64,000 nt of DNA, taken from the NCBI GenBank assembly GCA_026707405.1, contig JAPOWW010000001.1:1-64000 (forward strand), written 5' to 3'. Both the position numbers and the translations under genes were made by a program. This document shows, one piece after another, positions 5,575 through 51,000 of the stretch; within the stretch, counting starts at the first letter, position 1; each line of letters begins with the position of its first letter. The notes beneath the pieces were generated by a model. That model saw only the letters and a program-made list of their open reading frames with translations. It searched no databases and had not been told where the DNA came from. The stretch is from Chloroflexota bacterium (GTDB taxonomy: Bacteria; Chloroflexota; UBA11872; VXNJ01).

Positions 5575-5915
5575 TCCACCTTCCCGCTTTCGCGGGAATG
5601 ACGGGACGGCGTGGATGTTGACGGCGCATGGGGGAGCATCGGCACCAGGGGACACCCTCACCCTATCCCTCTCCCGTCAAGGGAGAGGGGAATGGGATTC
5701 GCCGCTTAGTCTCCGGCCTCTGGATTCCGGGTTTCGCGGGAATGACGGGACGGCGTGGATGTTGACGGCGCTTAAGAGAGCGTCGGCGTCAAGCGACACC
5801 CTCACCCTATCCCTCTCCCGTCAAGGGAGAGGGGACTGGAATTCGCCGCTAGGCCTCCGGCCTCTGGATTCCGGCCCCGTATCGAGTACGGGGCAGGCTT
5901 TTGCCGGTATGACGG
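5575..5915. repeat. Composite A-spacer-B x2 plus terminal A(D) block after ADH copy 2
   Basis: A 5575-5604, B 5653-5690, A 5719-5748, B 5797-5834, A with nested D 5863-5915; same spacer as 4089-4240. Confidence 0.95.
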
Positions 5916-22503: not shown

Positions 22504-22618
22504 ACCCTCACCCCTGCCCTCTCCCTTCAAGGGAGAGGGTGTGGATTCCCGCCCCGTATCGGGGTACAGGGCAGACGCTTCGACAAGCTCAGGGCGGGCA
22601 TTTCGCGGGAATGACGGG
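22504..22618. repeat. B-type repeat abutting A-type repeat with nested D and C modules
   Basis: B 22504-22540; A arms at 22541 and 22603 flank CCCCGTATCGGGGTACAGGGCAG and CTTCGACAAGCTCAGGGCGGGC. Confidence 0.92.
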
Positions 22619-43808: not shown

Positions 43809-46800
43809 CTAGACAAGACCGTCCGAGCACACGATTCGTATTACTTGTGGCTCCTGTGCTTGAGGCTGGTCCGAGTCGTCGGGCGGGTTAAGACGGTACC
43901 GCTCGCGCAGCGCGTCGAGCCGGGTCCGCAGCGCTCGGCCCTCGAGCTGCAGGTTTTTTATTTCTCCCAAGGCGTTCTCGACTTGCTGAGTCAGGTCGCC
44001 GAGGAATATTCGTCGCAGGTCTTCGATGCGTCGCCGCTCCGAGGCATCTTGCCCGGCCTCGTTCATGGCCATCCTGAGGTGCTTGGAGATATACCGGCGC
44101 GCCTGCGTGTCGCGCGGCCGTCTGGCCCTACCCAGCCGCCTACCGAAATCCGATCTGAACGCCTCGAACGCCGCCATTACCCGTTCGTTGGTATCGCTAG
44201 GCAACTCTTGGGCAGGCGTATCGCGTTCGCATTCAGCCGCCGCCACAAACTGGGAAGGACTGATAGCCCGAGGCTGTAGGTCACCGGCCACGGCGTAGCA
44301 TCCCTTGACCTCTCCAACGCTGAGCAGCACAAGCGTCTCTCCAGCCCTGGGCGGATCGAACGGAGAGACGGCCAACGAGTCTTCTCCCGGCGACACGAGC
44401 GGCATCTGGCTGTCTTCGATCTCCAAAGCGCCTTGCAGATGTAGGACACCGACTGGCTTCTGCGGTTCCCCAGCTAACGTCAATGCCGACCGTATCCCAT
44501 CCGGCAGGTTCGTGATCGTCTTCCACAGGTCCGGATCGTCGTCCTGGATGCGCTGAAGCAGCGCAACAGCACGCTGATGGGCCGCGATCTCGTCAAGGCC
44601 ATCGTCGATGTCGGGCAGTTGCTTGCCTTCATAGATGCTGTACATAGCCTTGACATTCAGCCGCTCGGCATCCGAGAGCAGCTTGCTGTCCAACCCAATC
44701 AGGTCGTGAAACAACTGGATTCGCCTATTGAGGCGCTGCGTCAGGGAAAGCTCTTTATCGACCTCCCGGTCGGGCCACATGTTATTGAGGTTTATCGCGT
44801 CGTATTCAGTGCCGATGCGGTCGACGCGCCCGAACCGCTGAATCAGACGGACGGGGTTCCAGTGCAAGTCGTAGTTCAGTACGCGGGCGCAGTCTTGCAA
44901 GTTCTGCCCTTCCGAGACGATATCAGTTGCGAGCAATACTCTGATTTCCGGGCCGGGCAACCTTTCGCCATCACCCAGGTTCCAGGTCGGCGAGAATCGC
45001 TTCACAATGGACTCCGCGTCGTTTCGGGTATTGCCGGTGAGCCGGGCGATTTCGCGGTTGCGGCCGCCAGGGTTCAACTCGCGGTACAGATACTCGATGG
45101 TCGTTTCGGCCTCCGAGAAGATCAGCACTTTGCCCGACTTGACCTCCGGGAGATCGAGAAACTCCCACAACGTTTGGAGCTTGTCGTCGTCTTCGGGGCC
45201 TATATCGACAACACGCTCCATCACTTCCTGCAGCAAGGCGTGGTCGGCGTCCAGATTTTCAATCCAGTCCGCTGTATTGAAGTCATCGGTTGTATGGACC
45301 AGCTTGCTATTCCGGTCACCGCCCATTTGCCTGCGACGTTCTTCCTGACCGAGTACTTCCAACAGATCGTCGGCGTCGAACGACTGACCGGAAAGTAGCC
45401 GAGTAGCGGTGGCGCCGATGGGCACGTAGCCCGCTTCCAGCGCCTGCTTGAAGTTGCGGTTGCTGTTCATGAGCGAGCTCAGCGTGGAGCGAAACGCCTC
45501 TATGCTTGATTCCAGCCGCTTAAGAAGAAGCACTCCCATCAGCCTGGCTATACGGTCGCGGGCCCTGAACAGATCGCGGTATTCCGGTTTGTGCTTTTCT
45601 TCCTCTTTTATGTATTCGGTGACTCTGTATCTAGCCCCAGCGTGTTGCGCCAGCAGGGCCTCGATCTCCTCAAGCGAGCCAGCCTTCGCATACACCTTGT
45701 CGAGTTGGTACGGCACGTTATCCAGCAACGGTTCCGGGAACCGCACGGCTTTACCATCTATGGCCGCAGTATCGCCGTATAGCTCCGTTATGTCCTTGCG
45801 GCGGCGGCGGATGAACACCGATGAGAGAACCTCTTCAATCTCGGCCTTTGGCACGGATGGCGGCTGGGGCTTGTTCATTGGGGGCGCGCCGATCCGACCG
45901 CCAAGAAGCCATGCGACGAATTCCCTTACGTAGTTCTCATGGTCGGCGCGGTACTCCAGCCATCGCCGAGCGTTCTGGAAGTATTGCTCAAGGCTGACGG
46001 GTTCTATATTCAGACCGTGCGCCGTGTCGTCCAGGAACAGCGTGATCTGCCGGTATATGTCCATCGGTCCCAGGTTCTGGGGCGTGGCGCTGAGCAGGAC
46101 TACTTTATGGTCGCCTGCCTCAAGGTACTCACGTAGGCCTTTCGAGCGTTTGTTGCGGTTGCGGAAGTTGTGCGCCTCGTCTACCAGGACCGGCCCCCGG
46201 TTGGGGAAGTCCTGCTGAAGAATGATCCCTTGCCCCGGTGGCGCGGCGTCCACGTACCGGCCCAGCTCTTCGTCGAACTCGGGGTCTTCAACAGCGCTGA
46301 TCAGGCTGTGCGATACGACTTCGGCCCCGAGTCCAAATCTCTCGTTGAAGTGCTGCCACATGGGCTTGAGTCCGGCGGGGCAGAGGATTAGCGGCGGGCC
46401 GTCGTTTGGATAGCTCACGCGGAGATGACGAAGCAACTCCGCGCCGATGAAAGTCTTGCCGAGGCCAACAACGTCGCCGACATAGCAGCCGCCGTAGGCT
46501 TCGATCATCGCCAGCCCTCGGCTTACGGCGTCTTGCTGGAAGTTAGCCAACGCGTCCAGCGGCGTCAGCGGCAGATCGCCTCCGACCAGACCGGTGTGAT
46601 AAAGCTCGTAGAGCGCCTTGAGGTAGACGTGATAAGGCGGCGTTTGAGCCAGCGCCCAGGAGCGGTCCAACTCGCGCTCCAGCGCCGGGCCGATGTCCTC
46701 GGAATCTTTCCACAGGTCCTCGAACCAGTCGCGCAGCGCTCGCATCTCGGCGTCGCCGGTGACTCGCACGTTCAGCTCGGTGTTGCCGGTGAACCCGGCG

Positions 46801-47348
46801 AGCGTGAAGTTGGACGATCCGACGACCGCCGCGCCCGGCTCGGCATGATCGGCGTACCAGCACAGATAGGCCTTGGCGTGGAGGGGACTTCGCAGATAAG
46901 CACGAACCTCGACCTGGCCGGTCGCGACCATGTCTCGCAGCGTTGACACGGCGTCTTCCGATCCGCCGGTCTGCGGGAGCACCGACACGCCCTGGGCGAT
47001 GCGGTCGACGGCCCGCTGCGCGATTTCGGCCCGCTGCCGCCGCCTGACCAGCGAGTCGGCGTCGAGCCGCGCCCTTAACGCATCGGCCTGCTGGAGTCCT
47101 TGCGCGACCTCTTCGAGGACCTTGCCGTCGGTGCGTCCGACCAGTATGCGTACCTTGTCCAGCCGGGACAGGTCCTGGGCCACAGCCTCGAAACCGCTGA
47201 CGAAGAAGTAACCGACGGCGATGTCGGCTCGCGCGGAACTGGACAGCATCTCCCTGAGCCGCTCCAGGAGAGGGGGATCGGTGGACGCGTGGAGGATGTT
47301 CACGAGCGGATCACGTTGGTAGTTCGAATCCAATCGGATTCTGACCAA
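43809..47348 (-). CDS. PLD-like nuclease / SNF2-type helicase fusion (GTG start at 47303 also possible)
   Basis: HAKAYLCWYADHAEPGAAVVGSSNFT HKD-type; GDVVGLGKTFIGAELL; VLVDEAHNFRNR; LLSATPQN; LLATDIVSEGQNLQDCARVLNYDLHWNPVRLIQRFGRVDRIG. Confidence 0.9.
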   Translation of the reverse strand: MVRIRLDSNYQRDPLVNILHASTDPPLLERLREMLSSSARADIAVGYFFVSGFEAVAQDLSRLDKVRILVGRTDGKVLEEVAQGLQQADALRARLDADSLVRRRQRAEIAQRAVDRIAQGVSVLPQTGGSEDAVSTLRDMVATGQVEVRAYLRSPLHAKAYLCWYADHAEPGAAVVGSSNFTLAGFTGNTELNVRVTGDAEMRALRDWFEDLWKDSEDIGPALERELDRSWALAQTPPYHVYLKALYELYHTGLVGGDLPLTPLDALANFQQDAVSRGLAMIEAYGGCYVGDVVGLGKTFIGAELLRHLRVSYPNDGPPLILCPAGLKPMWQHFNERFGLGAEVVSHSLISAVEDPEFDEELGRYVDAAPPGQGIILQQDFPNRGPVLVDEAHNFRNRNKRSKGLREYLEAGDHKVVLLSATPQNLGPMDIYRQITLFLDDTAHGLNIEPVSLEQYFQNARRWLEYRADHENYVREFVAWLLGGRIGAPPMNKPQPPSVPKAEIEEVLSSVFIRRRRKDITELYGDTAAIDGKAVRFPEPLLDNVPYQLDKVYAKAGSLEEIEALLAQHAGARYRVTEYIKEEEKHKPEYRDLFRARDRIARLMGVLLLKRLESSIEAFRSTLSSLMNSNRNFKQALEAGYVPIGATATRLLSGQSFDADDLLEVLGQEERRRQMGGDRNSKLVHTTDDFNTADWIENLDADHALLQEVMERVVDIGPEDDDKLQTLWEFLDLPEVKSGKVLIFSEAETTIEYLYRELNPGGRNREIARLTGNTRNDAESIVKRFSPTWNLGDGERLPGPEIRVLLATDIVSEGQNLQDCARVLNYDLHWNPVRLIQRFGRVDRIGTEYDAINLNNMWPDREVDKELSLTQRLNRRIQLFHDLIGLDSKLLSDAERLNVKAMYSIYEGKQLPDIDDGLDEIAAHQRAVALLQRIQDDDPDLWKTITNLPDGIRSALTLAGEPQKPVGVLHLQGALEIEDSQMPLVSPGEDSLAVSPFDPPRAGETLVLLSVGEVKGCYAVAGDLQPRAISPSQFVAAAECERDTPAQELPSDTNERVMAAFEAFRSDFGRRLGRARRPRDTQARRYISKHLRMAMNEAGQDASERRRIEDLRRIFLGDLTQQVENALGEIKNLQLEGRALRTRLDALRERYRLNPPDDSDQPQAQEPQVIRIVCSDGLV

Positions 47349-47994
47349 TCAGATCCACGGCATTCTTGATGCTGTAAGCGATTATGATGCCCGTGTTGGA
47401 TTTGTACGCTAACGCTGTTCTTTCATCCTTCAAGTACACGGATTCGAATTCCCATTGGTAACCGGAAATCACTCCCGCCACCGATAGCTCGGGTGGGCTG
47501 CTTCCCTGCGGGGTGAAGACTATGGGGCCGCCGGAAAACCCCGGATTGTTGTGGCCATCCAAGAGGAGCGGCTGATTAGCCGAGTTGTAGGCTGAAAAGG
47601 TTGCCTTCTTCACTAGAGGTAGGGGAAAGTCCCGGTTTAGGTTGGCGACCTCATTCGCCAGTCCGTAAGGAAAGCCGAGAAAGAAGACGTCTTGTCCTAA
47701 CGTGAGGCCAGCTGTACTCGGCGACAGGGGGTGCGTCGGAGAAAGTTGAGTTCCGCTGGCCAATACTGAGATATCGACGGCACCTTCGCAATGTCCCACC
47801 AAATCTACTTCGAGTGCCTTCCATGTGTCGTCGTGTTTGACCTCCAATACTGCTTGATCAACTACCGACTTGACCAGATGCTTCGCAGTGACGATGTACT
47901 GCCGATTGGTTACATCGATTGTGAAACAGGTTCCTTGAGAACCGCTGAAACGAAGCTGAAAGGTTCGCTGGAGAATATTGGATGTCGGCAGCAT
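47311..47994 (-). CDS. trypsin-like serine protease
   Basis: Triad context YIVTAKHLV (H39), GAVDISVL (D74), NPGFSGGPIV (S154). Confidence 0.8.
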   Translation of the reverse strand: MLPTSNILQRTFQLRFSGSQGTCFTIDVTNRQYIVTAKHLVKSVVDQAVLEVKHDDTWKALEVDLVGHCEGAVDISVLASGTQLSPTHPLSPSTAGLTLGQDVFFLGFPYGLANEVANLNRDFPLPLVKKATFSAYNSANQPLLLDGHNNPGFSGGPIVFTPQGSSPPELSVAGVISGYQWEFESVYLKDERTALAYKSNTGIIIAYSIKNAVDLIGQNPIGFELPT

Positions 47995-48005
47995 GGAGCG
48001 CTCTC

Positions 48006-51000
48006 CTAACGATTACTGATCGTCCTCGGGGCCTTTGGCTGGGGAGTTGTCAGGCTGCGGCGTTGGAACCAGTCGTTGATGAGGGCGATGTCGGCGGGGG
48101 AGAGGTCGTAGAGGTGGTTGACGATTTCGTTTAGCTGGTCGGTGTCGACGGGTTCTCCGGCGATGCCGGCGGAGGCGATGGAGTCGAGGCGGCGCTGGAG
48201 CACTGGGTCGGGCGTCACGATGGGTAGGCGGGTCATATATTGACGCTTCGGCCTCAAGAATCCCCCGCGCAGGGAACTGGTTATCTGGCACAGCAGGAAT
48301 TCGCTTAGGTGGGAGTTCAGTAGTGCCATGAGCCACCGAGAATCCGTTGGTATTGTGAAGCAGGTCATGTCCAAGTAATTTGCTTTCGTGTCGAAGGCGA
48401 ACCTGACTTCGCGGGCTATGTCGGGCCAGACTATCTTTGGACGGGCGAACTCTTCGTATATCCCTTCCTGCGGCTGCTGCAGCTCGTACCACGGGTGCAG
48501 GTGGGAGGTTGCACGTCTTTCAAGATTGAGGCGATAGATCTCCAAGTGTTCGCGGACCCTGGGGTAGCGGTCGATGTCCACGCCGCGGTTCGTGAAGATG
48601 ATGTAGAGTCCGGCCCATTCCGCGCTCCACCGCTTGATGTTCTTGCCCCTTAGATAGGGCTTGATGATTTCGGCGCTGCGCGGGTCGGCGTCGACAAGCT
48701 CATCGCGCTTGTAGCGGTCGATGACGAAGGCTCGATTCAGCCCAGTCTTGACACCCATATACAACGATCCGTCGACGAACTCGCCGAGCGGAGTTCCCTG
48801 ATTCATAAGGCGCTCGAAGAGGCGTATCAATGCCGGGTCTTCCAAGGCCCAGCCGTTCTGTCTAAGAAACGCCTGGGGATAGTCAGCATGACCGTGGCGG
48901 TCCAGAAGAGCGGGAAGGCCGTCCATAGCCTTGTTCACCGTGTCTGGCGTTACAGATAGTCCCCGTTCATTCAGCGCTATACGGACAGGCGTTGTGAGAT
49001 CGGCGACCCGCAACTCATGGCGGTGTTCCGCCTGCCCATTACGACCGATGAGGACCGCCGGGTACGACGTTGCCGTGAATACCGGCAGGTCGCCAAAGTC
49101 CATCACTTGTTCAATTGTTAGAGAGTCCCGGAGGAGTGCTCGGAGCTTCTTGCCATAGTCGGCCCGCATGTACTTGTTGCTGGTGATGAACGCCAGCCAG
49201 CCGCCAGGACGCATCAGCTCGATAGCCCTGGCGAAGAAGTAGACGAGAATGTCCGCCTTTCCTTGATATACGGACGGGAACCGCGTAGCGAGATCGGGCT
49301 TCAGTTCGCCAAATTGCTCGTGGCGCACGTAGGGCGGGTTGGCGATTACGACGTCGAAGCCGCCACGCGCAGCGAAAACCTCGGCAAAGGCGATGCGCCA
49401 GTCGACTGAGCCCTGGGGCGCGCCCACGCCGCCGAGCGCGTCTCGCAGATCTTGCTCGGTGTTTTTGATGCGTTCCCTGAGGCTGATCTTGGTGGGGCCC
49501 GGTTTCTTGCGCATGTATTCGGCCTTGAGTGCGCCGAGGCTGGATGCCGCGATCTGGTAGTCGAATAGTTCGGTTTGCCGGAGGGGGGAAGTTGGATCGG
49601 GATTGGGAGCGGCGGTAGTGCTGGGGTCCGGGCCGAGGAGGCTGTCGCCGCGGAGGACCTTGAAGTCGAGGTTTGGGAGCGGCTCGGGGACCGCGCCCTC
49701 GTAGTCAACGATGAGCGAGAGCCACATCCGCAGCATGGCGATGTTGATGGCGAACTCGTCATTGTCGACACCGTAGAGGTTATGACCGATGCTGTGCAGC
49801 TTCAGGTCGTAAATGTAGCGAGGATTCTGTCTTAACTCCGGGGTATCCAGCGAGGTCCTCAGGTCAACCATTTCCTGCATCATGCCGAGCAGGTAAGCGC
49901 CGGAGCCGCAAGCCGGATCAACGACTCTGATCTCGGCTAAAGCCTCACGGACTCCATGTGCTTGATCGGAGATTCCTTCAATTTTGTGGTCATCCACGAA
50001 CTCTTGAATTGCCTCCGGCGATGCACCTAGCCCTTGTCCTTCGAGGTAGCCCTTGAGCGCCTCGCGGCACATGAAGGACACGACCGGGCGGGGAGTGTAA
50101 TACGAGCCGCTTTGGTGGCGGCCGGTGACCAGCTCCTCGAAGACCTTGCCGAGCATCTCGGGGTCGACGGCGACCTCGATGTCGAACGGGGTGGACTCCA
50201 TGACTGTGAAGTTGAACTTTTCGAACAGGTCGGTCAGGACCGGGCGAATGGCGTCGTCGGGGACGATTACTCCGTCTTGTTCGTCCAGATGGGTCTTTTC
50301 AAACAGGCCACCGTTGAGGAAGGGGACTTGGCCGAAGACCGACTCCATGTAACGGCCTTTGAAGTTCGAGTTCATGTCGCTCGACCGGGGATTGTTGAGT
50401 CCGAAGAAGAAGAGGTGACACAGCCGGTCCCGGTAGAAGTTGTGGTCACCCCTCCCCTCTCCCGTCAAGGGAGAGGGGATGTCGGTGCGATAGTCGGTCC
50501 ATAGCGCCTTGAGGTAGTCGTTGTCGCCGTTGAAGGTCAGCCAGCCCTTGCGAGAGAGGAAGTAGACGAACATCAGGCGGTTGAAGAGCGTCTGGACGAA
50601 GAGCCGTTTTTTCTCGTCCTCGCTGGGGCCGAAGCCGGAGACAAGTGCCTCTGCCGCCTCGAAAACGCGCTTGTAGTCCTGGAAGAACTTCCTGGTGACG
50701 GGTTCGACGTCGAAAGCCTCTTGCAGGGCCTCGCGGATGCGACCGCTGCGTTCGTAGCTCCAGTAGACGTTGGAGAACTGCTGGACGGCGGTGCGGCGGG
50801 GTAGGTCGCGCTCGACGACCATGCGGCGCAGAGTGAGCTGCGTTCCGCCGAAGTCAGGATGGATGAAGTGGAGCTGCGAGCGGGAAGTGTTAGTGAAGAC
50901 GAGCAGCATGTCCTCGCCGAGCGAAGCTTCGATCTCTTTGGCCGCGGCGACCGCCTCCGCCTTGCGGACGCGAGTCGTCTCCGGGATGTCCACCACAACG

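Follow-up and report, generated by a model that had tools for sequence, protein, structure and literature searches.

In-Frame BoxC/TM Elements Colonise Proteins in a Chloroflexota Lineage

A restriction-modification methylase gene of the type IIG-like class, located at 48006–51227 (minus strand) of the window (the whole stretch of 64,000 nucleotides that was analysed), carries within its reading frame a copy of a short dispersed repeat. This locus raises the questions of what kind of element the repeat is, whether it was inserted into the gene, and how a protein could accommodate it. The host ORF is open throughout its 1073 codons, and its product matched the Pfam families Eco57I (1.2e-36) and TaqI_C (1.9e-17) and the PADLOC model REase_MTase_IIG (5e-107). 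The catalytic motifs are kept (DPACGSGA, which is motif I, and NPPY), and the type IIG-like assignment follows from the N6-adenine methylase core (DPACGSG, NPPY) together with a specificity domain, while the N-terminal part gave no nuclease match in Pfam. The solved folds nearest to the model of the protein were CamA, BrxX/PglX, M.BseCI, MmeI and BpuSI.

The in-gene element occupies 50446–50477 on the minus strand, where the codons CCC TCT CCC TTG ACG GGA GAG GGG AGG GGT GAC encode PSPLTGEGRG(D). Its minus strand reads CCCTCTCCC-TTGAC-GGGAGAGGG-GAG-GGGTGA, and the order of the blocks is reversed on the plus strand. The core at 50455–50477 has 0 mismatches to the pattern CCCTCTCCC-N5-GGGAGAGGG; on the minus strand it consists of stem strand 1 (CCCTCTCCC, 50469–50477), the 5-nucleotide loop TTGAC (50464–50468) and stem strand 2 (GGGAGAGGG, which follows the TM consensus, 50455–50463). 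The block corresponding to a third, triplex-forming strand lies at 50443–50451 (minus strand); it retains GGGTGA, and its last 3 nucleotides (CCA) differ from the consensus GGGNGAGGG, so that 6 of the 9 third-strand bases are kept and this copy is a decayed TM member. The original prediction had placed the repeat at 50447–50480 and counted about 11 added residues; the flanking peptides that it gave were correct, and the element itself is better described as 50446–50477, with the peptide IPSPLTGEGRGD(H) of about 12 residues.

The remaining copies in the window, all on the minus strand, are an intergenic copy upstream of the methylase gene with a full third strand (51366–51400) and those at 2086–2120, 5655–5689, 5799–5833, 22505–22539 and 60697–60731. 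Seven copies of the core pattern were thus found in the window compared to 0.03 expected from shuffles, and the 3.13-Mb genome holds 39 exact core copies and 0 matches to a reversed-pattern control. With the ORF intact, these counts bear out the earlier claim that a dispersed repeat lies in frame within the methylase gene. An assembly artefact or a pseudogene could give a similar picture, as the assembly is a draft and repeats can be misassembled. However, this explanation is the least probable of those considered and can almost be dismissed: the methylase frame and catalytic motifs are preserved, and similar in-frame inserts, including orthologues filled at the same site, were found in independent assemblies.

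When 45 copies from the genome were aligned, the repeat was resolved as a directional unit of about 40 nucleotides in which, on one strand, CACCCTCACCCYAACC precedes the hairpin. The opposite strand of the unit reads CCCTCTCCC-N5-GGGAGAGGG-N3-GGGTGAGGG, in agreement with the TM consensus CCCTCNCCC-N3-6-GGGNGAGGG-N3-GGGNGAGGG, known earlier as BoxC or PIT (Holder et al. 2015, PMC4666352). The hairpin portion, CCCTCNCCC-N3-6-GGGNGAGGG, is present at 50455–50477, and the N3 spacer followed by the third strand GGGNGAGGG is present in 153 strict copies of the family. The label of a plain palindrome given in the original prediction is therefore replaced by membership of the BoxC/PIT/TM triplex family. 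Only for the E. coli motif has intrastrand triplex folding been demonstrated, by in vitro CD and NMR measurements (PMC4666352). The likeness between the E. coli motif and the Chloroflexota repeat lies in their common consensus; in E. coli MG1655 the motif is reported to be always intergenic (PMC4666352), whereas Chloroflexota copies also occur in frame in proteins, mostly in one frame. Intergenic location belongs to the MG1655 report and lies outside the consensus definition, and the in-gene copy of the window departs from it. Nearly all E. coli genomes contain BoxC/TM repeats, as do many other bacteria. A 42-nucleotide consensus query matched 5386 of 5426 E. coli genomes, with 97.6% identity for the best among the matches listed, as well as many plasmids. 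The repeat had no match in Rfam, and a literature search for exact phrases of the peptide or the element returned none in relevant papers, the single hit being, to judge from its title, on RNA interactions.

In its size, its hairpin and its mostly intergenic location the repeat resembles a REP of the GTAG/CGTC type mobilised by a RAYT, and intragenic REPs of this kind have been described as 20–40 nucleotide hairpin repeats within ORFs, often in DNA-processing proteins and with a suggested position in flexible linkers (Di Nocera et al. 2013, PMC3733652). In contrast to these REPs, the TM element has a third triplex strand, and none of the 45 aligned copies carries a GTAG or CGTC tag at the base of the stem. 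Y1_Tnp/RAYT genes numbered 0 in G000 and were absent from every TM-bearing genome among the 24 of the order; the only Y1 transposases in these 24 were in G022 and G018, both of which have 0 exact TM copies. A RAYT-mobilised origin was rejected as very unlikely, complete TM-rich genomes also lacking such a transposase.

To the question of whether the peptide is an insertion, the homologues of the methylase and a structural model give concordant answers. In tblastn and MAFFT alignments of sequences from class-wide, phylum-wide and GTDB searches, 31 homologues (34–66% identity) show a gap over IPSPLTGEG, and the PSPL-GEG peptide occurred in none of the aligned homologues. The linker concerned is about 5–13 residues long in the homologues and 16 in the window methylase; because its length varies naturally, the net gain is given as 9 residues over the commonest length. 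The search found no empty-site relative of the window gene above 70% identity. In an AlphaFold2 model built from a 22-sequence alignment (mean pLDDT 78, pTM 0.75), residues 249–263 form a coil between the helices at 238–248 and 264–277, and pLDDT falls below 50 exactly at residues 253–259. Thus the gap in repeat-free homologues and the loop position, which had been proposed as checks of the insertion, were both found.

The natural variation in linker length, including a linker of 13 residues in the homologue L047, would also suit an ancestral long loop that came to resemble the repeat by chance and never received an insertion. Chance does not account for a perfect 18-nucleotide stem, the commonest loop of the family (GTCAA) and the retained part of the third strand, and the same peptide that is missing from the homologues appears in unrelated proteins. 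We consider this origin highly improbable. Insertion is favoured instead: very probably, a TM copy was inserted in frame in a variable linker of the methylase and is tolerated as a flexible peptide, and it is mainly the PSPxxGEGxGEG frame of such copies that survives.

Colonisation of proteins by BoxC/TM elements extends, in this Chloroflexota lineage, beyond the window methylase. A survey of 275 TM copies from 8 related genomes, mostly drafts, in which a codon model required both sides of a copy to look coding, identified in-frame internal copies in at least 11 gene families, the window methylase included. The PSPxxGEGxGEG frame is used in all nine of the following: the window methylase, a PMT/DUF2298 membrane protein, a DrmMI-like methylase, GH127, Wzy_C (an O-antigen ligase), an SNF2 helicase of the HKD+Snf2 defence type, type ISP, HsdM and GNAT. 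As had been anticipated, SPLTGEGxGEG-like peptides are present in other proteins of the same genome and its relatives. By simple count, restriction or defence proteins make up 5 of these nine families. Outside this frame are PfkB and an S78 prohead-protease-like gene (a weak Pfam match), in both of which the in-gene copies are antisense, and perhaps L158, which has no Pfam match. The DrmMI-like genes additionally carry TM copies in a second frame, and inserts from several genomes occupy three sites in this family, some of them together with REP-like peptides such as SVIPAEAGIQS.

The PMT/DUF2298 gene is filled in both members of its genus (92% identity) and empty in 18 homologues. Among GH127 orthologues, which were fetched by protein, a perfect element is present in G001, G003, G004 and G005, and the site is empty in two congeners, G002 and G006, as well as in more distant homologues. 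Filled and empty sites within one genus indicate that this insertion was recent in that lineage, which strengthens the earlier interpretation of an in-frame insertion into a tolerated loop. The empty sites also agree with the earlier claim that the family is mobile, with mobility read from these sites and no mobilising enzyme found. Since an in-gene copy whose orthologues have an empty site dates the insertion and reveals the surviving orientation and frame, the mobility of the element becomes testable.

In-frame insertion into protein genes that are unrelated to one another, at sites that are empty in homologues, is the behaviour of Rickettsia palindromic elements (RPEs), which are likewise dispersed palindromic repeats tolerated in frame. 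The parallel that had been drawn with RPEs holds for behaviour and does not extend to identity: the comparison was made with literature descriptions, RPEs belong to another phylum, and the Chloroflexota element is of the triplex family. Our data provide a further case of repeats colonising proteins, here in free-living Chloroflexota as opposed to obligate intracellular bacteria. Because in-frame palindromic repeats were already known (RPEs, and intragenic REPs, PMC3733652), what is new is the family of the element, the bias in frame and the restriction or defence proteins that it targets.

In terms of frame, PSPxxGEGxGEG represents only 139 of the 1084 open element frames in the 275 copies (0.128), as some spacers, TTA for example, introduce a stop codon there, yet 9 of the 12 families use it (p = 1.4e-6). 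Between co-directional genes, the intergenic copies showed no orientation bias (35 sense, 43 antisense), and orientation alone, counted by gene family, gave weak evidence (9:3 compared to 35:43, p = 0.07). This count replaced a first test on single copies (p = 0.004) after candidates had been rejected. Each family was counted once, and the p values are indicative because the gene-calling rule was set by the analyst and refined after a first pass. A strong frame bias without an intergenic orientation bias is read as the outcome of selection acting on the encoded peptide, and not of insertion in a preferred orientation.

These results suggest the following sequence of events. The repeat is a dispersed, non-autonomous BoxC/PIT/TM intrastrand-triplex element that inserts between genes without orientation preference. 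One copy entered the variable helix-helix linker of the methylase with the frame kept, as the gapped homologues and the model show. It may be tolerated because the linker is at the surface and because the element, read in this direction and frame, encodes a stop-free, acidic and flexible peptide rich in Gly, Ser, Pro and Glu. Selection may then weed out copies that disrupt the reading frame or encode a less suitable peptide, which would leave mainly the PSPxxGEGxGEG frame in dispensable linkers, often those of restriction or defence proteins.

The GH127 copies bear on whether more than peptide tolerance is at work, that is, whether in-gene copies are kept for their triplex DNA structure or homogenised by gene conversion. 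The four species agree at all 27 positions of the stem and third strand, while the loops and spacer differ at 1–4 of 8 positions and the flanking 4-fold sites of the orthologues are only 72–83% identical. Against this, the stem identity was partly ascertained by the search pattern, few changes at 4-fold sites are expected, and independent insertion at one site could have occurred. Moreover, one stem pair is broken in the PMT copy of G021, a copy identified through a protein search, and the third strand of the window copy is decayed. Maintenance by DNA structure or conversion is accordingly a minor possibility, and peptide tolerance remains the preferred reading. A broader proposal, in which TM/BoxC is active mobile DNA with one frame serving as a protein-compatible linker, the triplex sequence is kept in genes, and restriction or defence proteins are preferred landing or retention sites, is rather doubtful. 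If true, a DNA-structure element would repeatedly remodel anti-phage proteins.

Several low-threshold in-gene candidates were rejected as upstream reading-frame extensions, namely L197 (ileS), L226 (sulfatase), L191 (racemase-like), L179 (creatininase-like) and L053 (dprA), the names having been read by eye from translations. L057:276 was a chance match lacking the third strand, and an extra copy found only in G021 was not clean as an insertion.

Other repeats were observed in some of the same genes. In the DrmMI-like homologues L121 and L123, several kinds of dispersed repeat, including those encoding SVIPAEAGIQS and PVRGEPVEP, are in frame at the same linkers, and the residues added by this pile-up can exceed 100. 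The PfkB-family kinase (L198:1731-3200, minus strand; L256; L277) contains, in frame, clustered antisense TM-like repeats together with a REP-like peptide. In the prohead-protease-like gene (L055:1489-2154, plus strand; L167), an antisense TM copy is in frame near the C terminus and is kept in two species.

The surroundings of the window methylase were also noted. The methylase, a trypsin-like peptidase (47311–47994) and a PLD/HKD+SNF2 helicase (43809–47348) are consecutive on the minus strand, and this row (43809–51227) looks like a defence operon. A HepT-like ribonuclease gene is found at 51839–52219 on the plus strand, and judged by eye, it probably has a nucleotidyltransferase partner located just upstream.
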